From NCBI RefSeq assembly GCF_001730525.1, contig NZ_MDFN01000025.1, positions 1 to 64,000 of the forward strand: a stretch of 64,000 nt of DNA, written 5' to 3'. This document shows, piece by piece, positions 1 through 28,977 of this stretch. The notes below the pieces were generated by a model. That model had not been told where the DNA came from. It ran no database searches and was given only the letters and a program-made list of their open reading frames with translations. Made by a program: the position numbers and the translations under genes. Each line of letters opens with the position of its first letter. Position 1 is the first letter of the stretch. This DNA comes from Arcticibacter eurypsychrophilus. GTDB lineage: Bacteria > Bacteroidota > Bacteroidia > Sphingobacteriales > Sphingobacteriaceae.

Positions 1-846
1 ATCCTGCAATATGGGTTGGTAGGGCGGATACATTAAAGCCTCATTTGGATGATAAATTAACCATTGGTTGTTGTTTCTAAAACTAGCTACATCATCATTA
101 GCGACTTTTAATAACATATCATCAAATGCAGGTGCATTAAAAAAATCATTGAATTCCTCTTGCTGCAACAGTTGATGTAAGTCGTAGGTATGCCTGATTT
201 TTCTCTTTAAATCAGCTATTGGGTTTTCTCCATAAGAGAAACGGACCAGGCTCATAATTTTTTCACAGATAGTTCTTATGGGCTCTAATACCAATAAATT
301 AAAAGATAACATTCCGTTTTCCTCTGCTATGTCCTTTTGACCATTGCCGAGCATCATATTGCCTATGAATGAAATGATACTTTTGGAAGTATAAGGTTCG
401 TGATAGCCCAGCCATGTCGCTTCAATAATAATTACATCTCTAACTTGTCCGTAATTACCCTCAAATTCCTTATTATAAGTATGTGCCGTCTTTCTGTTCA
501 TACCCATTTTCTGCGTTATCCCTGCAATTGGCACTTCTGGCATTATAGTTTCAACAACCCTACTAATAGCTTTTAATTTTGATTTTAGTTTGCCATTTGT
601 ATCCCCTGTTTTACGTAACACCACTAAATCAATATCCTCCGAAAACCTATCAATCATGTTATAGCATTTAGAAAGGGATGTTCCGCCTTTAAATACAGTA
701 TCACTACCAATTTCGTTGTTAAAAATGGCATACAGCGCATACGTTACCCAATAGTCTTTCTCTACATAAATGGACGGGATGTCCATCTGTTGCGCTGTAA
801 ACTGAACCGCTTGCCTAAATAGTGTTTTGTTTTCATGGAGCCTCAT
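1..846 (-). CDS. AbiEii-type nucleotidyltransferase toxin (partial, 3' end outside window)
   Basis: The frame is open from an ATG at 846 to the window edge (282 codons), so the C-terminus is missing. The N-terminal part carries the hallmarks of the AbiEii/AbiGii (DUF1814) toxin family: EKDYWV at residues 29-34, FKGGTSLSK at 52-60 (nucleotide-binding GGTSLS loop) and RFSEDIDLV at 67-75 (metal-binding DxD-like acidic pair). A later HTYDLHQL stretch matches the family's conserved C-terminal helix. Known members are kinase/nucleotidyltransferase-like toxins; some act on tRNA ends. The start codon overlaps the stop of the upstream AbiEi-like gene in an ATGA, indicating translational coupling in a two-gene toxin-antitoxin operon. 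Family assignment is firm; target and antiphage role are inference. Confidence 0.85.
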   Translation of the reverse strand, partial: MRLHENKTLFRQAVQFTAQQMDIPSIYVEKDYWVTYALYAIFNNEIGSDTVFKGGTSLSKCYNMIDRFSEDIDLVVLRKTGDTNGKLKSKLKAISRVVETIMPEVPIAGITQKMGMNRKTAHTYNKEFEGNYGQVRDVIIIEATWLGYHEPYTSKSIISFIGNMMLGNGQKDIAEENGMLSFNLLVLEPIRTICEKIMSLVRFSYGENPIADLKRKIRHTYDLHQLLQQEEFNDFFNAPAFDDMLLKVANDDVASFRNNNQWLIYHPNEALMYPPYQPILQD

Positions 847-1568
847 ACAATATTCCATTTTACGGTGGTAGCTAACACTTTTACCGCACCAATAAATTTA
901 TATTTAGTAATGGGGTTTAATGATTTTAAAATTGGCTCTGTTAAACTGTTTGGTTTAATCTGATCTAATAGCGCACCAACCAATGCTTTGGTAGCAGGGG
1001 GATATTTTAATACCAAACGAACTAACGTAACTTTCTTTTTTTCAGAAAGCCTTTTGATTATTGCCAAAAGTCGTTTGCTAGCAGATTCTATTGTAGCATC
1101 AGGTATTTTTTTAATATATCGAACGGCATCTAATAGTTGAAGCAATGGAATATTCTCTTTCGTAATTGTGTTGTTTTGCTTAATAAAAGCAATCATGTAC
1201 CGTTCCCGTTTAAAGTTGGGTCTAATCTGATTTTTTCCTATTTGAATAGTGTTACTGACCTGAGTAGTTAACCCCAGCTGATTATAAACACTGTAGCCGG
1301 TAAGATAGCCGATAATCTTTCCATCATCTTCTAATAAATCTTTCACAACCTGTGCCTGATTTGGCTGTAAATTACCAAAAGGTGTATTTTCAGGTTTATA
1401 GAATTTCCCCTTAGAAAGTTTAGCAATTTTTCCTGAGGCAGCCATTCGATTAAGCGCTTTTATTATAGCCTCTTTCTTACTGACCTCAGTAGTAAAATCT
1501 ACATAGGTGAATATATATCCTTTAGGAAGCCTATCAATGGTAGATGATATATAATCAGTGATTTTCAT
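843..1568 (-). CDS. AbiEi-like antitoxin/repressor (DUF6088 type)
   Basis: 241 aa protein whose first ~65 residues form a winged-helix-like segment, with FTYVDFTTEVSKKEAIIKAL followed by RMAASGKIAKLSKGKFY. This is typical of the DUF6088/AbiEi group that partners AbiEii toxins. The rest resembles the AbiEi C-terminal antitoxin region, rich in Lys/Leu. It is the first gene of the pair and overlaps the toxin start by 4 nt. AbiEi proteins are known to repress their own promoter by binding inverted repeats; a 28-bp perfect inverted repeat lies just upstream (1583-1642), fitting autoregulation. The start at 1568 is the only ATG that keeps the HTH complete and lies about 14 nt after a good -7 box. 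Role as antitoxin is inferred from pairing and family. Confidence 0.75.
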   Translation of the reverse strand: MKITDYISSTIDRLPKGYIFTYVDFTTEVSKKEAIIKALNRMAASGKIAKLSKGKFYKPENTPFGNLQPNQAQVVKDLLEDDGKIIGYLTGYSVYNQLGLTTQVSNTIQIGKNQIRPNFKRERYMIAFIKQNNTITKENIPLLQLLDAVRYIKKIPDATIESASKRLLAIIKRLSEKKKVTLVRLVLKYPPATKALVGALLDQIKPNSLTEPILKSLNPITKYKFIGAVKVLATTVKWNIV

Positions 1569-1581
1569 ATAAGAGCTTAGA

Positions 1582-1642
1582 CAAATATAAAAGTAAATGT
1601 CCAGTTTTTTTCATAAAAAACTGGACATTTACTTTTATATTT
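1582..1642 (-). promoter_or_regulatory. AbiE promoter with 28-bp perfect inverted repeat
   Basis: Arms 1583-1610 and 1615-1642 are perfect reverse complements separated by TCAT. On the minus strand a TATATTTG (-7 type TAnnTTTG) lies at 1589-1582, so the promoter-proximal arm overlaps the -7 box; no TTG at the ideal -33 spacing was found. The element sits between the end of the ATPase gene (1659) and the AbiEi-like start (1568). It could be the AbiEi operator, a terminator hairpin for the ATPase gene, or both. Confidence 0.65.
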
Positions 1643-1658
1643 AATGAGTTCCTGCCTT

Positions 1659-2849
1659 TTAGTATAAAAATCCAAATAGCCAGATTGGAACTTTGTTTCC
1701 TGCTCCGATTTCAATATCATCAGCTGCAATTAAATAATTATCCAGGTGCTTAACCTGAGATGTATTCATGCCTTTTCCTCCAACCTCGATTGTCAATCCA
1801 CTAATGGCAAAGTCACCTTCCGACGGAGAATTGACCTTTAAACCTGCATTGAGTAATTGGTTTAAAACAAATGTCTCCCTGATATTCCCAATATCAGGTT
1901 TTTCTTTTAGTGCAAAAGCAAGGTTAGTATTTTCCAAAAATATCTTGTCCGGCTTTTGTAAAGTTGAAACCCCTTTCCCTTCCGAACTTAGCGTGTTAAG
2001 CAACCGTGCATCTTGTAATTGGTAGATATATTGATAGACACTGTCACGGCTCAAATCAAGTTTCCTTGCAAGTGCGGCAATATTAGGTTTAAAGGGAACC
2101 GATTCGGCTATTACACCCAATAATTTTTTAACCTTGATTGCCGTCCCTGAATTATATGAAACGATATAAGCCAGGTCGATATCTACAATTGTATTGATCA
2201 CCTGGTTCAATTTCATCAGATAGGTATCTTCCCCTTCTACAATAATTGGCAAATAGCCTACTTCTAAATATTTACGGAATGCAGGTAGTGGATGAAAACC
2301 TTCAGTGATCATCCGGCTTAGGCTCCGGTGGTTATTGTTGATATCCTCAATTTTGAATGCGTTAAAACTTACCCCATGGATAAATGCTAAATATTCCCGA
2401 AAAGAAAGCCCTGCCAGCAAATAGCTCACAACTCTTCTACTTAAGTCAGCCTCACCACGATAAATATCCAATGCTGAAGAAGCTGAAAAAACAACCTGCA
2501 TTTCGGGCAATCCATCATAAATGTTCTTCAACTCAACTGACCAGTTCTCATATTTATGGACTTCATCGATAAATAATATTTTCCCTCCTTGTTTATACCA
2601 ATCATTCGCTGTATCCAGTAATGTATGATTGTAAAACCATGTATGGTCAGCTGTGATATATAATGCTTCTGGAGGCAATCCAAGGTCATACTTTAAATAC
2701 TGCAACATTAGTGTAGTTTTCCCCGCACCTCGTGGGCCTTTAATCCCAATCATTCTTTGTTTCCAGTTAATCTGGTTATGCAAGTATCTTCGGAAATCAT
2801 TCTTTATCGGACGTAAAAGATTTTCCTGAAATTCAAATAAAATTTGCAT
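1659..2849 (-). CDS. AAA+ ATPase with DUF4143-type C-terminus
   Basis: 396 aa. The Walker A is GPRGAGKTT near residues 38-46, the Walker B is KILFIDEVHKY, and SASSALDI looks like the sensor segment. This order matches the AAA_14/DUF4143 (COG1373) ATPases found widely in bacteria and archaea. The C-terminal half has a winged-helix-like stretch (ALARKLDLSRDSVYQYIYQL) and ends in a region with GDFAISGLTIEVGGKG, resembling the nuclease-like fold tail of DUF4143 proteins. The cellular role of this family is not established; it is often seen in accessory regions and is sometimes suspected of toxin-antitoxin or mobile functions. It is monocistronic by layout, with its own promoter and palindromes upstream and the AbiE unit downstream. 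Confidence 0.75.
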   Translation of the reverse strand: MQILFEFQENLLRPIKNDFRRYLHNQINWKQRMIGIKGPRGAGKTTLMLQYLKYDLGLPPEALYITADHTWFYNHTLLDTANDWYKQGGKILFIDEVHKYENWSVELKNIYDGLPEMQVVFSASSALDIYRGEADLSRRVVSYLLAGLSFREYLAFIHGVSFNAFKIEDINNNHRSLSRMITEGFHPLPAFRKYLEVGYLPIIVEGEDTYLMKLNQVINTIVDIDLAYIVSYNSGTAIKVKKLLGVIAESVPFKPNIAALARKLDLSRDSVYQYIYQLQDARLLNTLSSEGKGVSTLQKPDKIFLENTNLAFALKEKPDIGNIRETFVLNQLLNAGLKVNSPSEGDFAISGLTIEVGGKGMNTSQVKHLDNYLIAADDIEIGAGNKVPIWLFGFLY

Positions 2850-2853
2850 ATTT

Positions 2854-2919
2854 ATGTCGATTTAATACGACAAAAATATAACAAATATGTCGATTGTAAT
2901 CGACATATTTGTTATATTT
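2854..2919 (-). promoter_or_regulatory. ATPase promoter with 22-bp perfect inverted repeat and a second GTCG dyad
   Basis: Arms 2874-2895 and 2898-2919 are perfect reverse complements with a 2-nt centre. A minus-strand TATTTTTG (-7 type) at 2878-2871 overlaps the proximal arm. A weaker dyad GTCG-N8-CGAC (about 2855-2870) lies between the box and the ATG at 2849 and repeats the ATGTCGATT core of the big repeat. The distal arm ends directly at the stop codon of the next gene upstream (2920). This suggests tandem operators for a repressor; a terminator role for the upstream gene is also possible. Confidence 0.6.
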
Positions 2920-4479
2920 CTAAAAATCCTGATACTTATTCCTAAACGAAGCCTTCAGCCCAATAGTAAAAAACTTTTCCTTATCACTCTTCAGGTCATT
3001 TACCTCATTACGCAGGCTATAGCCCAGCTCCATGCGCAAGTTATTCTTAGGGTTCAGCAAGTACGATACATTTGTATTAGCATAAAAGAATTTGGTTTTC
3101 AGGCCATGACCAATCTCTACCCCATAATCATCCACACGGGTGGTATAATCGAGGTAAATATTCTTTCCATAATTTAAGCCATCCACATCCAGACCATAGC
3201 GTGCTACATTACCCTGCAGGCGCAGTTCCCAGCGGTTGTAGCGATAGTTAACCAACGCAAGGTATTCCCGGAAGTTCGCACCAAAAGGATGCGCCAGCGG
3301 TTCATTATAATGACCATAGTTTTTAATGCGCTGACTCGCCGAGTAGGTATACGGCCGCACCGCATTATATTCCAAAGTCGCGTTTAAGTTAGGCAGCTGA
3401 AAAACATCAAAAGCACGAAGCCCTAATTGCGCACCATGTTTATTCGCCCAATAGCCGGTACCCGCAAAAACCTCTTTCAGCGTAAACTCATTCAGCACAA
3501 ACTGGCCATAAGCCAGCAATTTTTTATTCAGCTTATAACTCCCGTTCAAACCCAGCACGACTTTATCCGGAGAACCATTATTATATTCCGTTGGACGTAA
3601 AACTAAGACCGGAACCGCATAACTCAAATCCAGCCCCCTTGGCGCCCACATCACATTCTCAAAAACACCCAGACTCAGTCGTTTATTCACATTCCAATCC
3701 AGGTAATGAAAGACTCCATATTTCTTATCATACGGCGTTTCATCATCAAAGCCTATCGCATATAGATCCTCAAACTGCGCCCACATAGCAGTATATTGCA
3801 CCCTGCCCAGCGCACCCGTAACCTTTAAATACGGATAGTTGAACGCATAATCCGAAAGCAGCAAGGAACGATACCCATTTCCGATGAAGTTCTTTCCATA
3901 ACCCACCTGAACGTTCAGGTATTTCGAAGGCGTATACGAAAGCAAGGCCGAAGAATTCGAATAATCAAAACCATCAGCACCATACGTCTTGGCATGTCCC
4001 TGTCCCGGAACCACCTTATTATTACGAATATAATCGTTGTAGTAGGAGGGATATACCCCTTGATTTTCACTTATCGTGCCATTAAAAGAAAACTTATCGC
4101 CTATATGACCATCCACAGCCAGTTCCCTGGTATTATTCCAAATCGTACGGCCATCCTGCTTTCCAACCCATAGATCAGGCAAAAAGTCAAAGTTTACCTC
4201 ATACTCGTCATTTTTAATCTCAACCAGATGCTGCGTAAAGATCTTCCTGAACAGCCAGTTCTTAGATTGCCATTCTTTAACCGGAACGTCATGTTGCAAA
4301 ATAGAATCCCGGATAGCAGACCGTAACATCAGAGGCTGAGCAGCAGTATGAATCGAAAAATCTTCCATCTGATACAAATGTGAATTAGGAAACCTATTCA
4401 ATACCGGAAGCGGGGAAGATTGAGGGAAAGCCTTAAAAGAGAGGCCAACACAGAGGAGTAAAAAAAGTGTATACTTCAT
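2920..4479 (-). CDS. Outer-membrane beta-barrel, Wzi/RemB-like capsule assembly protein
   Basis: About 519 aa from the ATG at 4479; a longer TTG start at 4488 is less likely because the signal peptide begins MKYTLFLLLCVGL. After the cleavable signal (AFPQ) the protein is a run of alternating amphipathic strands (YLNVQVGYGKNF, RYNRWELRLQGNVARYG) and ends in Phe, as outer-membrane barrels do. Length and pattern fit the Bacteroidota capsule assembly Wzi family, which includes gliding-motility protein RemB. Wzi anchors capsule polymer to the outer membrane. It is the last gene of the minus-strand polysaccharide locus, about 100 bp after the CapD-like gene. Function in surface retention of the polymer is inferred. 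Confidence 0.7.
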   Translation of the reverse strand: MKYTLFLLLCVGLSFKAFPQSSPLPVLNRFPNSHLYQMEDFSIHTAAQPLMLRSAIRDSILQHDVPVKEWQSKNWLFRKIFTQHLVEIKNDEYEVNFDFLPDLWVGKQDGRTIWNNTRELAVDGHIGDKFSFNGTISENQGVYPSYYNDYIRNNKVVPGQGHAKTYGADGFDYSNSSALLSYTPSKYLNVQVGYGKNFIGNGYRSLLLSDYAFNYPYLKVTGALGRVQYTAMWAQFEDLYAIGFDDETPYDKKYGVFHYLDWNVNKRLSLGVFENVMWAPRGLDLSYAVPVLVLRPTEYNNGSPDKVVLGLNGSYKLNKKLLAYGQFVLNEFTLKEVFAGTGYWANKHGAQLGLRAFDVFQLPNLNATLEYNAVRPYTYSASQRIKNYGHYNEPLAHPFGANFREYLALVNYRYNRWELRLQGNVARYGLDVDGLNYGKNIYLDYTTRVDDYGVEIGHGLKTKFFYANTNVSYLLNPKNNLRMELGYSLRNEVNDLKSDKEKFFTIGLKASFRNKYQDF

Positions 4480-4586
4480 GAACAACAAATATATCTAGTT
4501 CTTTGAAATTTTCTTCAATATTTCATTCGGATCCATTTGACTGTCAAGGATCTTCTTTATTGGAGCTTCATGCTTTCATAACCAGT

Positions 4587-24743: not shown

Positions 24744-25661
24744 ATGGAACAAAAACTTACTGGCCGCTACATTGATCCACTTACAGACTGGTCTTTTAAG
24801 CATCTTTTTGGCCTTGATCCTCATAAAGACATTCTAATAGAATTCCTAAACGACCTTTTTAAAGGCGAAAAGCATATCACAGATATCGTATACAAATCGA
24901 ATGAGCATGCTGGAGACCGACGTGATCTAAAAAAGTCAATTTTTGATCTTTTGTGTACAGGAGATAAAGGCGAGCATTTCATTGTAGAAATACAGCGTGG
25001 AAAACAAATTTTCTTTCGCGACAGATGTATATTCTATACCTCCCGCCTGATCAATGAGCAATTGTCGGTTGGAAAGGATAGCGAGACTTACGAACTACAG
25101 GAAGTATACCTGATTGCCATATTGGATTTTACCATAGAGCAATCCCCCTCGAAACAATACCTGCACGATATCTGTTTAATAGACAAAGATAAAGGCACAA
25201 TATTTTATAAGAAACTGGGTTATAAGTTTTTGGAATTGCCTAACTTTACTAAAAACGAGAAAGAATTAGAAACAGGCCTTGATCGCTGGTTTTATATGCT
25301 GAAGAACATGAGCAGATTAGACAAATTGCCGCTCTATTTCAAAAAAAGCATATTTGAAAAGATATTCCAGATAGCAGAAATTAGTAATTTAACAAAGGAG
25401 GAGTATATGTCATACAGAACAAGTTTAGAGCAAAAGTGGGATTATGATAACGTGCTTGCTTATGCTGTTCAAGAGGAGGGCAAAAAGAAGTACGGTGAAG
25501 GAGAGAAAAAAGGCGAAATTAAAGGAAAGATTGAAGGGAAAATAGAAGGAGAAAAAGAAAATAAAATAGCAACCGCCCGTAAAATGAAAGCCAAAGGTTA
25601 CTCATTTGCTGACATTGCTGAAATAACAGACCTTTCCATCGAGGAAATTGAAAACTTATAA
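24744..25661 (+). CDS. Rpn-family PD-(D/E)xK nuclease/transposase (TIGR01784-like)
   Basis: 305 aa. The start YIDPLTDWSFKHLFG is the signature opening of the Rpn/PDDEXK_2 family. The nuclease core is visible as IFDLLCTGDKGEHFIVEIQR, with D, E and the Q of ExQ. The C-terminus has a charged repeat (KGEIKGKIEGKIEGEKENK) and a short HTH-like tail, AKGYSFADIAEITDLSIEE. E. coli Rpn proteins promote RecA-independent recombination and some behave as phage-defence or toxin-like nucleases. The gene is alone, with a terminator 5 nt after its stop. It is full length compared with relatives, so probably intact. Confidence 0.85.
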   Translation: MEQKLTGRYIDPLTDWSFKHLFGLDPHKDILIEFLNDLFKGEKHITDIVYKSNEHAGDRRDLKKSIFDLLCTGDKGEHFIVEIQRGKQIFFRDRCIFYTSRLINEQLSVGKDSETYELQEVYLIAILDFTIEQSPSKQYLHDICLIDKDKGTIFYKKLGYKFLELPNFTKNEKELETGLDRWFYMLKNMSRLDKLPLYFKKSIFEKIFQIAEISNLTKEEYMSYRTSLEQKWDYDNVLAYAVQEEGKKKYGEGEKKGEIKGKIEGKIEGEKENKIATARKMKAKGYSFADIAEITDLSIEEIENL

Positions 25662-25665
25662 AGCA

Positions 25666-25702
25666 AATTATCGGCAATAAACTCAATTTATTGCCGATAA
25701 TT
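25666..25702. terminator. Bidirectional terminator hairpin
   Basis: A 16-bp perfect stem (25666-25681 with 25687-25702) and 5-nt loop lie between the convergent Rpn-type gene and the ABC exporter gene. Flanking T-runs are short on both strands. Confidence 0.7.
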
Positions 25703-25721: not shown

Positions 25722-27470
25722 CTACACCATTACCCGCTCACCAATCTGCTGTCTCCACATCGCATAATACAACCCCTTTTCTTCCAAAAGCTCTACATGT
25801 TTACCCGACTCAATGATATGCCCCTTCTCTAAAACAAAAATCTTATCGGCATGCATGATAGTGGAAAGGCGATGTGCAATCAATATGGTTATTCTCTTAT
25901 CCATATTGGATACATCCCGTATGGTCTTGGTGATTTCTTCTTCAGTAATGGAATCCAAAGCTGAGGTCGCCTCATCAAATACCAGGATATCCGGTCTCCG
26001 AAGCAAGGAACGGGCAATAGACAGGCGCTGCTTCTCTCCCCCGGAAACTTTAACACCCCCTTCTCCAATAACCGAATCCAGCCCCTTATCTGCACGAGCG
26101 AGTAAACTCTGACAGGCTGCTTTACGCATCACATCCAGACATTGCTCATCAGTAGCATCCGGTCTTACGAACAACAAATTTTCCCGTATCGTTCCCGAAA
26201 ACAGCTGCGTATCCTGAGTGACAAACCCAATCCGCTCTCTAAGCTGATCCAGGTCTATTTCGGATGTAGGAATATTATTGTACAGGATACTTCCCTCCTT
26301 AGGGGTATAAAGGCCAACCAGAAGCTTCACTAATGTTGTTTTACCTGAGCCTGAAGGCCCTACGAAGGCAATGGTTTGTCCCGTAAGTGATGTAAAACTA
26401 ATATGGTTCAGCGCGTTGGTATTAGCTGTCTGATGTTTGAAGCTTACATTCTTGAAACTCAATTCCCTGATGTGATCCAGCTTAACCGGATTAAGCGGTT
26501 TCTCCTCGATTGGAGAGCTCATGATCGCTTTAAAGTTAGCCAGCGATACTTCCGTTTCCCGATAGGTATTGATGATATTTCCTAGTTCCTGTAGCGGACC
26601 AAATATAAAGAAGGAGTATAGGAACAACGAGAAAAACTCACCAACGGAAATCTGATTATCATAGATCAGGTACATCATCAGAAACAGGATTCCATTTCGC
26701 AACAAATTAACCAGGGTGCCTTGAATAAAACTCAGACTGCGGACGTACTTCACTTTTTTAAGCTCAAGCACCAGAATCCGATCCGTAGTACTATTCAAAC
26801 GCTTTATTTCCTGTGCGGCCAGACCTAAACTTTTAACCAGCTCGATGTTTCTTAAAGATTCCGTAGTTGATCCGGCAAGGGCAGTTGTCTCCGATACAAT
26901 ACTCTTTTGCACGACCTTAATGCGTTTACTCAGAATCGAACTTACTGTACCCAATACAGGGATGACCGCAATATAGAATACCGCAATCAGCCAATGAATA
27001 TTGATCGCATAGAAAAACACGAACGTAATCCCGATGACACTGGTGAAGACAATATTAATGGTGGCAATAATCAGCTTCTCGGTATCTAGTCGTACCTTTT
27101 GAAGGATTCCTAAGGTTTCGCCGCTTCGCTGATCTTCAAACACCTGGTAAGGAAGCTCCAGCGAATGCGCCAATCCATCGGAATAAAGCTTTGCACCCAA
27201 ACGCTGCGTGATGACATTGACATAGTAATCCTGGAAATTCTTCGCAATTCGAGATACCATGGCCACGCCCATTGCAGCTAAAACCAGTAATCCAGCGCCT
27301 TTAAAAAACTCTTGCGTACTGTAATCATTATAATGAGTCACATACTTATCAATGATTTTCCTGAAAATCCAGGGATCAAGAAAAGAAAAGATCTGATTAA
27401 TTGCAGCCAGGAGTAATGCTAATGCAATTAGACTTTTGTATTTCTTTAAATAGTTAATCAGAATCTTCAT
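25722..27470 (-). CDS. ABC exporter half-transporter (TMD-NBD fusion)
   Basis: 582 aa. Six membrane helices in residues ~10-310, then an ATP-binding domain: Walker A GPSGSGKTT (~369), signature VSGGEKQR (~473), Walker B ILVFDEATSALD (~492) and switch His in IAHRLST. It works as a homodimer or with a partner, and resembles MsbA/BmrA-type lipid or multidrug exporters. It is monocistronic by layout: convergent with the Rpn-type gene, and separated from frr by a terminator. A minus-strand TATTTTTG at 27503-27496 could be its -7 box. Cargo is unknown. Confidence 0.88.
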   Translation of the reverse strand: MKILINYLKKYKSLIALALLLAAINQIFSFLDPWIFRKIIDKYVTHYNDYSTQEFFKGAGLLVLAAMGVAMVSRIAKNFQDYYVNVITQRLGAKLYSDGLAHSLELPYQVFEDQRSGETLGILQKVRLDTEKLIIATINIVFTSVIGITFVFFYAINIHWLIAVFYIAVIPVLGTVSSILSKRIKVVQKSIVSETTALAGSTTESLRNIELVKSLGLAAQEIKRLNSTTDRILVLELKKVKYVRSLSFIQGTLVNLLRNGILFLMMYLIYDNQISVGEFFSLFLYSFFIFGPLQELGNIINTYRETEVSLANFKAIMSSPIEEKPLNPVKLDHIRELSFKNVSFKHQTANTNALNHISFTSLTGQTIAFVGPSGSGKTTLVKLLVGLYTPKEGSILYNNIPTSEIDLDQLRERIGFVTQDTQLFSGTIRENLLFVRPDATDEQCLDVMRKAACQSLLARADKGLDSVIGEGGVKVSGGEKQRLSIARSLLRRPDILVFDEATSALDSITEEEITKTIRDVSNMDKRITILIAHRLSTIMHADKIFVLEKGHIIESGKHVELLEEKGLYYAMWRQQIGERVMV

Positions 27471-28941: not shown

Positions 28942-28977
28942 AAAGGGGTTCTTTTACTTGCGTAAAAGAACCCCTTT
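28942..28977 (-). terminator. Terminator after tsf
   Basis: Perfect 16-bp stem (28942-28957 with 28962-28977), 4-nt loop, followed on the minus strand by a T-run. It ends the rplM-rpsI-rpsB-tsf transcript. Confidence 0.88.

Follow-up and report, generated by a model that had tools for sequence, protein, structure and literature searches.

Predicted self-addressed operators within two perfect promoter palindromes of Arcticibacter eurypsychrophilus

Introduction

Why should two unrelated accessory units of Arcticibacter eurypsychrophilus each carry a long and perfect inverted repeat at the promoter, and which protein might read it? The repeats lie near the start of the window, by which we mean the whole stretch of 64,000 nucleotides analysed here, one before an AbiE toxin-antitoxin pair and the other before an ATPase gene. 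A sequence-only reading had proposed a single promoter design shared by both units, with the repeats as operators for related repressors, as terminator or insulator hairpins, or as the ends of a mobile cassette. The conservation, geometry and covariation of the repeats, together with the direction in which their arms resemble those of relatives, point to another answer, namely that each repeat is a predicted operator read by the product of its own gene, and that the arms became long by copying into the distal arm. We put the probability of this reading at roughly 0.78.

Two perfect inverted repeats at two promoters

The genes concerned (the 522-codon reading frame, the ATPase gene, abiEi and abiEii) are all encoded on the minus strand, and the first features are as follows.

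1..858, minus strand: abiEii, nucleotidyltransferase toxin gene, cut by the contig start (open reading frame, Pfam)
843..1568, minus strand: abiEi, DUF6088/AbiEi antitoxin gene, its product the proposed IR1 repressor (open reading frame, PADLOC and Pfam)
1582-1589, minus strand: abiE -7 box TATATTTG, a TAnnTTTG match 13 nt before the abiEi ATG
1583..1642, minus strand: IR1, 28-bp perfect arms 1583-1610/1615-1642 with a 4-nt loop (repeat search, 100%)
1659..2849, minus strand: AAA_14/DUF4143 ATPase gene, 396 aa, PADLOC PDC-S01, its product a proposed autorepressor
2871-2878, minus strand: ATPase -7 box TATTTTTG, a TAnnTTTG match
2874..2919, minus strand: IR2, 22-bp perfect arms 2874-2895/2898-2919 with a 2-nt loop (repeat search, 100%)
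2920-4488, minus strand: open reading frame of 522 codons, upstream of the ATPase gene

IR1 occupies the space between the ATPase stop and the abiEi start, and IR2 that between the stop of the 522-codon frame and the ATPase start. They are the two longest perfect inverted repeats in the window (loops up to 10). Among 60 simulated 64-kb windows (first-order Markov), the longest perfect arm was 14, and 52 windows had no arm of at least 12. TAnnTTTG is the consensus of the Bacteroidota -7 box, and each of the two boxes overlaps the promoter-proximal arm of its repeat; at its outer end, the distal IR1 arm consists of the mirror image of the abiE box. The arms of both repeats start with AAATATAA and include ATGTC. 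The sequence-only reading was thus accurate in its description: the repeat search confirmed its coordinates and perfect arms to the base, both boxes and the common arm start are real, and arms of this length are indeed rare by chance. Two shorter perfect repeats with 16-bp arms occur farther along the window, one at 25666-25702 (loop 5) between the convergent frames 24744-25661 (+) and 25722-27470 (-), which is perhaps a bidirectional terminator, and one at 28942-28977 (loop 4) between two minus-strand frames.

The antitoxin was identified by PADLOC as AbiEi (3.2e-57) and by Pfam as DUF6088 above cut-off. The toxin frame follows directly with a 16-nt overlap and matches the Pfam AbiEii nucleotidyltransferase family (2.2e-26); window position 1 is the contig start, and the 3' end of abiEii lies beyond it. 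An AbiEi gene, an overlapping AbiEii gene and inverted repeats in the promoter (IR1) are together the features of an AbiE type IV toxin-antitoxin system, for which negative autoregulation of the operon by AbiEi, toxicity and neutralisation would be predicted by analogy. The ATPase has an AAA_14 domain above cut-off (1.4e-25) and matches the PADLOC profile of PDC-S01, a candidate defence family (4.5e-24). Its DUF4143 match reaches 21.1 bits against a Pfam gathering score of 28.1, and all 49 of the aligned members match DUF4143 with E no higher than 0.1, the best at 2.5e-10. The source genome has one match each to the AbiEi and ATPase proteins.

A conserved 28-bp core within IR1

1599..1626, minus strand: AbiEi operator core GTCCAGT-N14-ACTGGAC, inside IR1 (conserved before AbiEi homologues)

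AbiEi homologues were drawn from samples of 301 family genomes and 395 phylum genomes, and 44 upstream regions were kept after dropping duplicates (L001, L056, L130), partial loci (L038, L055) and matches with E above 1e-12. The core GTC[CA]AGT-N14-ACT[GT]GAC, exactly 28 bp in length, precedes 40 of these 44 homologues, whose proteins are 100 to 35% identical and one of which is the relic of a sister species. L040 and L048 have the core with one mismatch. It is absent upstream of L042 and L176 among the 44, even though the AbiEi of L042 is 42-44% identical. The core occurs in two classes. A TAnnTTT(G) box follows the GTCCAGT form after 6-8 nt in 15 of 22 cases (9 nt in the window) and the GTCAAGT form after 15-19 nt in 14 of 18, the box scan having seen none or mistaken one for the remaining cores. 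Both operator arms have changed together in the GTCAAGT class, and its AbiEi proteins carry a different N-terminal helix (..AAKAIERL.. versus ..IKALNRM..). A scan of the 301 family genomes for GTCCAGT-N14-ACTGGAC found 13 places, of which 10 precede AbiEi (one relic) and 3 do not; the reversed control pattern matched in 6 genomes.

Characterised AbiEi proteins are autorepressors acting through inverted repeats at their own operon (PMC7319586). Because the core precedes AbiEi homologues and AbiEi autorepression through inverted repeats is known, the IR1 core is most simply taken as a predicted AbiEi operator: AbiEi would bind the 28-bp core just upstream of the -7 box and repress abiE, like its characterised counterparts. 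One of the closest known systems is the AbiE promoter of Streptococcus agalactiae, where the AbiEi binding sites are two 23-bp inverted repeats separated by 3 bp (PMC7319586). The two share an AbiEi-family protein, inverted repeats over its own promoter and a bicistronic abiEi-abiEii arrangement. The window differs in having the GTC[CA]AGT-N14-ACT[GT]GAC core upstream of a Bacteroidota -7 box, a DUF6088-type AbiEi, and arms extended to 28 bp, apparently by arm copying. The Mycobacterium tuberculosis Rv2827c-Rv2826c promoter, with its two pairs of 23-bp repeats (PMC7319586), is likewise autoregulated by an AbiEi-family antitoxin through several repeats, whereas AbiE in the window has one pair.

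A pair of palindromes before the ATPase gene

2855..2872, minus strand: O1, downstream ATPase operator TGTCGT-N6-TCGACA, an imperfect palindrome 33 bp from O2
2888..2905, minus strand: O2, upstream ATPase operator core TGTCGA-N6-TCGACA, inside IR2

O1, which was absent from the sequence-only reading and is new in this analysis, repeats the IR2 core 33 bp nearer to the ATPase ATG and starts on the TG of the -7 box. All 12 closest ATPase relatives (80-97% identity), from diverse Bacteroidota, have a recognisable IR2 core with a second copy 33 bp downstream, O2 being degenerate in L137. More distant lineages have other half-sites (TGCAGT, TGACTT, TGGTTT, TGTTTA, TGCACT, CGGTCT and others) in an unchanged layout.

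For a wider comparison, 29 loci from titled records together with genome samples yielded 177 proteins, after exclusion of L096 (short ORF), 11 duplicate proteins, partial matches and loci without a usable start; one gene counted twice (L083/L126) leaves 176 distinct upstream regions. The operator-pair score averaged 30.3 in the 177 regions, against 24.9 in 885 shuffles and 25.2 in 95 control genes chosen by ORF length only. Scores above the shuffle 99th percentile were reached by 81 of 177 ATPase upstreams and 6 of 95 control genes. With the duplicate removed, 80 of 176 exceeded the threshold, and their spacing was 33 bp in 51, 32 bp in 28 and 30 bp in 1, where 26-42 was allowed. Every one of the 24 regions from genus g80 is among the 96 of 177 at or below the threshold. 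A spacing of 32 or 33 is still present in 71 of these 96, and it occurred in 86 of 885 shuffled sequences. When one protein was taken per 70%-identity cluster, 33 of 69 lay above the threshold, 32 of them at 32/33. The operators preselected for 32/33-bp spacing, which were also used in the covariation and arm-symmetry tests below, include 85 that are even-centred and have a -7 box, and 64 of these have a palindrome beginning precisely at the TG of that box.

A later set took in 12 of the 26 plasmid records and all 4 viral loci, and the best spacing, taken at no score threshold, was 32/33 in 11 of these 16. L286 and L287 (Campylobacterota) have a spacing of 34, L289-L291 of 41, 39 and 28, and the best palindrome pair of L275 lies far from the -7 box. 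The plasmid homologues L280-L285 come from Runella, Emticicia, Persicobacter, Parabacteroides and Segatella. Within g80, L197, L201-L203, L205 and L206 have one palindrome, resembling TTTGTAAAA..TTTTACAAA, across the -7 box, without a clear upstream copy. In L079, L087, L106, L219, L225 and L246 the operator is odd-centred (TGCACT-N5-AGTGCA or a near variant) and the protein has the helix SRNNIADY or a relative of it, so the operator centre shifts between ATPase lineages.

From these data, IR2 looks like the upstream member of a predicted family-wide, self-addressed operator pair. A common repressor for IR1 and IR2 was rejected on the cores themselves, GTCCAGT-N14-ACTGGAC and TGTCG-N8-CGACA. 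Across unrelated contexts each core accompanies one of the two genes, and either gene codes for a likely DNA-binding protein of its own. The proposal of one shared design thus holds as far as both promoters have the look of operators, whereas the common design and the related repressors give way to two unrelated, private circuits with different cores and different likely readers.

Origin of the long arms

The palindrome cores are conserved upstream of homologues, whereas the long outer arms, whose conservation the sequence-only reading had made its touchstone, are not. Of the 40 AbiE cores, just two have long outward symmetry, those of the window (16 bp) and L039 (14 bp); it amounts to 6 bp in the sister species and 5 or less in the remaining cores. 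L039 (Arcticibacter G041) has its AbiEi operator with long perfect arms before the match at 1501-2220; the outer sequence is different, and the outer arm again mirrors its own -7 box. At the preselected ATPase loci, outward symmetry of at least 8 bp occurs beside the upstream palindrome in 10 of 101 (null 0.25%) and beside none of the 101 downstream palindromes, and the extended arm sequences differ case by case, except in the near-identical L148/L149.

The distal IR2 flank of the window is complementary to the promoter-side flank of its five closest relatives at 12 of 14 positions and identical to their distal flanks at 8-9 of 14, with L137 left out and three of the five having identical flanks. 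For IR1 against the sister, the corresponding values are 13/16 for the promoter-side complement and 8/16 for the distal flank. Since the distal flanks resemble promoter-side complements more than distal flanks, copying probably proceeded from the promoter side outwards, and each distal arm probably duplicates the promoter-side arm of its repeat. The sister's distal O2 flank (L130:2420-2480) fits the promoter-side flanks of other relatives at 11 of 14 positions and its own at 9 of 14, so that the copying may predate both Arcticibacter species and have decayed in the sister.

Hairpin template switching at a pre-existing operator palindrome is the most likely event by which the distal arm would have been rewritten, the extra length and perfection then forming no part of the binding site. 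Copying would have mirrored the -7 region in both repeats, hence the AAATATAA common to both distal arms. O1, whose flanks are the -7 box and the start codon, may have been spared for that reason. In quasi-palindrome template switching (PMC8794818, PMC8604942, PMC7202029), one arm of an imperfect repeat is likewise rewritten to match the other; the window differs in that we infer the event, that it lies at operators, and that it carried the -7 box to a mirror position.

One observation sits less easily with template switching: most long arms have a co-directional gene upstream of them, a bias not readily expected from mutation alone. It would suit repeats that are, or are also, terminators or insulators against read-through from the upstream gene, with selection for the hairpin having made the arms long and perfect. 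A co-directional upstream ORF was found at 6 of 6 ATPase loci with at least 10 bp of outer symmetry and at both long-arm AbiE loci. By the same crude ORF calling, in which the co-directional ORF of L039 ends 358 nt away, the other 113 usable ATPase loci comprise 52 co-directional, 46 divergent, 14 without an ORF and 1 not readable, and the other AbiEi loci, a set with duplicates, 26 co-directional, 11 divergent and 16 without an ORF. When symmetry of at least 8 bp is considered, the share is 8 of 10, L148 and L149 having no nearby co-directional gene. Both RNA hairpins are strong (IR1 -37.4 and IR2 -31.3 kcal/mol; z -8.9 and -10.0), and the sister's IR1 folds well despite its relic abiEi (-36.7, z -6.5), whereas its IR2 is a poor hairpin (-14.7 kcal/mol, z -1.5) with the same upstream gene ending there. 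Terminator-like consensus sites number 9 between 1400 and 3200 against 1.2 expected, 7 of them being nested versions of IR1 and IR2. The T-run counted by the scan lies inside the stem, and conservation of the cores extends to loci with short arms and a divergent upstream ORF. The hairpins possibly have an added terminator or insulator role; as an account of the repeats, we consider this reading unlikely in comparison with operators lengthened by arm copying.

The reader of the ATPase operator

1989..2081, minus strand: winged-helix segment of the ATPase, residues 257-287 (covariation, Pfam, structure model)
2010-2048, minus strand: recognition helix of the ATPase, residues 268-280

Self-recognition by the ATPase would predict that half-sites vary along with its DNA-binding helix. 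We compared 70 proteins under 85% identity, with half-site similarity corrected for overall identity. The covariation peaked at residues 259-281, which hold the six best of 193 windows across the whole protein; the top partial r was 0.351 and that of the best non-overlapping window 0.205, from pairs that are not independent. Column 269 ranked first, and columns 200, 67, 33 and 84 outside the helix were also high. A nearest-neighbour test on pairs under 50% identity gave 0.478 at residues 255-274, the best block beyond 250-290 reaching 0.425. Distant clades with TIK/TLK helices (L019, L252) have the half-site TGGTTT in common, and L074, L120, L212 and L233 with an HR helix have TGCA in common, L027 being an exception with an HR helix but TGCTAT.

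The same segment is a predicted winged helix. Pfam HTH_11 matched 25 of 49 members at E up to 0.1, and residues 257-281 of the window ATPase below the Pfam cut-off. The structure model (mean pLDDT 78.5) has helices at 257-264 and 268-280 followed by wing strands; it was the second one, built on an alignment including four viral-contig homologues, and the first (pLDDT 53) was set aside. Its ATPase module followed by a winged helix corresponds to the STAND/archaeal ATPase fold, and we take the protein to be STAND-like. Model residues 11-316 resemble SSO1545 (2fna; Z 15.3, rmsd 4.0, 263 aligned), and PABY2304 (2qen) has the same archaeal ATPase and winged-helix fold (Z 14.5, rmsd 4.6, 266 aligned); we know of no operator for either. 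CED-4 (2a5y) is similar over residues 2-361 (Z 14.0). The top Foldseek match was the Cdc6/Orc1 initiator on origin DNA (2qby), an AAA+ ATPase with a DNA-binding winged helix, but the TM-score is low (0.31) and 2qby is a replication initiator and not an autorepressor. A PDB sequence search with the ATPase gave P-loop proteins and weak matches, with no clear relative and neither 2fna nor 2qen among the best 60 of 84; the search with AbiEi gave four weak matches and no clear relative, and an NCBIfam search gave no match.

The operator thus overlaps the promoter of the gene whose DNA-binding helix it tracks. Self-recognition by the ATPase is well supported by this covariation, and because the half-site covaries best with its own recognition helix, the ATPase is most likely the repressor of its own gene. 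Its internal winged helix would bind a pair of palindromes separated by three helical turns, with O1 on the -7 box and start region and O2 (IR2) just upstream, each lineage using its own half-site. Binding, repression, dimer stoichiometry and the release signal of the proposed circuits are what we infer from these patterns.

The palindromes alone do not name their reader, and a regulator encoded elsewhere in the host might use them instead of the gene's own product. We consider this improbable, since half-site changes track the recognition helix of the ATPase itself and the operator pairs stay with the ATPase gene in distant genera and on plasmids. Nor is a regulon evident, since the source genome has 2 further TGTCG-N8-CGACA matches against 3 for a control pattern. 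Selection for orthogonal operators within a genome was also considered and rejected: all 23 within-genome ATPase pairs (13 genomes) differ in consensus half-site, and the similarity between paralogue operators was not significantly below that of matched pairs, 487 of 5000 draws being just as low.

Mobile-element and chance explanations

The AbiE and ATPase units are both accessory and adjoin each other, and two plasmid ATPase homologues adjoin an integrase or recombinase gene, as might be expected if the repeats were the ends or recombination sites of a mobile cassette carrying both units. This proposal of the sequence-only reading is very improbable, since the arms of IR1 do not match those of IR2, each core keeps to its own gene elsewhere, and close ATPase-AbiE adjacency occurs only in the window and its sister among the matches listed. 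Of the 28 loci L130-L157, read with flanks of at most 2.5 kb and in some cases less, that of the sister, Arcticibacter svalbardensis, was the only one to contain AbiEi sequence, in the form of a relic. This relic (L130:3690-4010) retains its beginning, up to about residue 47, and its end (216-241), with stops; its abiEii is broken off soon after the start, its operator core is intact and its -7 box region has decayed. Chance palindromes, which are commoner in AT-rich DNA, or REP-like repeats can be dismissed almost entirely on arms of 28 and 22 against the simulated maximum and on the conservation of both cores across homologues.

Implications

In the AbiE part, Bacteroidota members with a defined 28-bp operator would join a known type of circuit. 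The ATPase operator pair appears from the sequence comparisons to be an undescribed, family-wide self-control switch; we found no report of autoregulation of this ATPase in the open-access literature, and the pair offers a first entry point for tests of a family that this literature barely covers (DUF4143, PDC-S01). It also predicts that a STAND-like switch would be coupled to the transcription of its own gene. Tentatively, in the widespread STAND-like PDC-S01 ATPases the winged helix of the switch region might be a sequence-specific autorepressor on two operators three helical turns apart, with lineage-private half-sites. ATP-driven activation or assembly would then remove the ATPase from its promoter and free it, so that sensing and self-induction would be one event. 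If this is true, paralogue ATPases in one cell would not cross-talk. The pairs of recognition helix and half-site form a natural series from which a recognition code of winged helices might be readable. More generally, the two repeats suggest that unusually perfect promoter palindromes can be mutational footprints on ordinary operators and not signals themselves.
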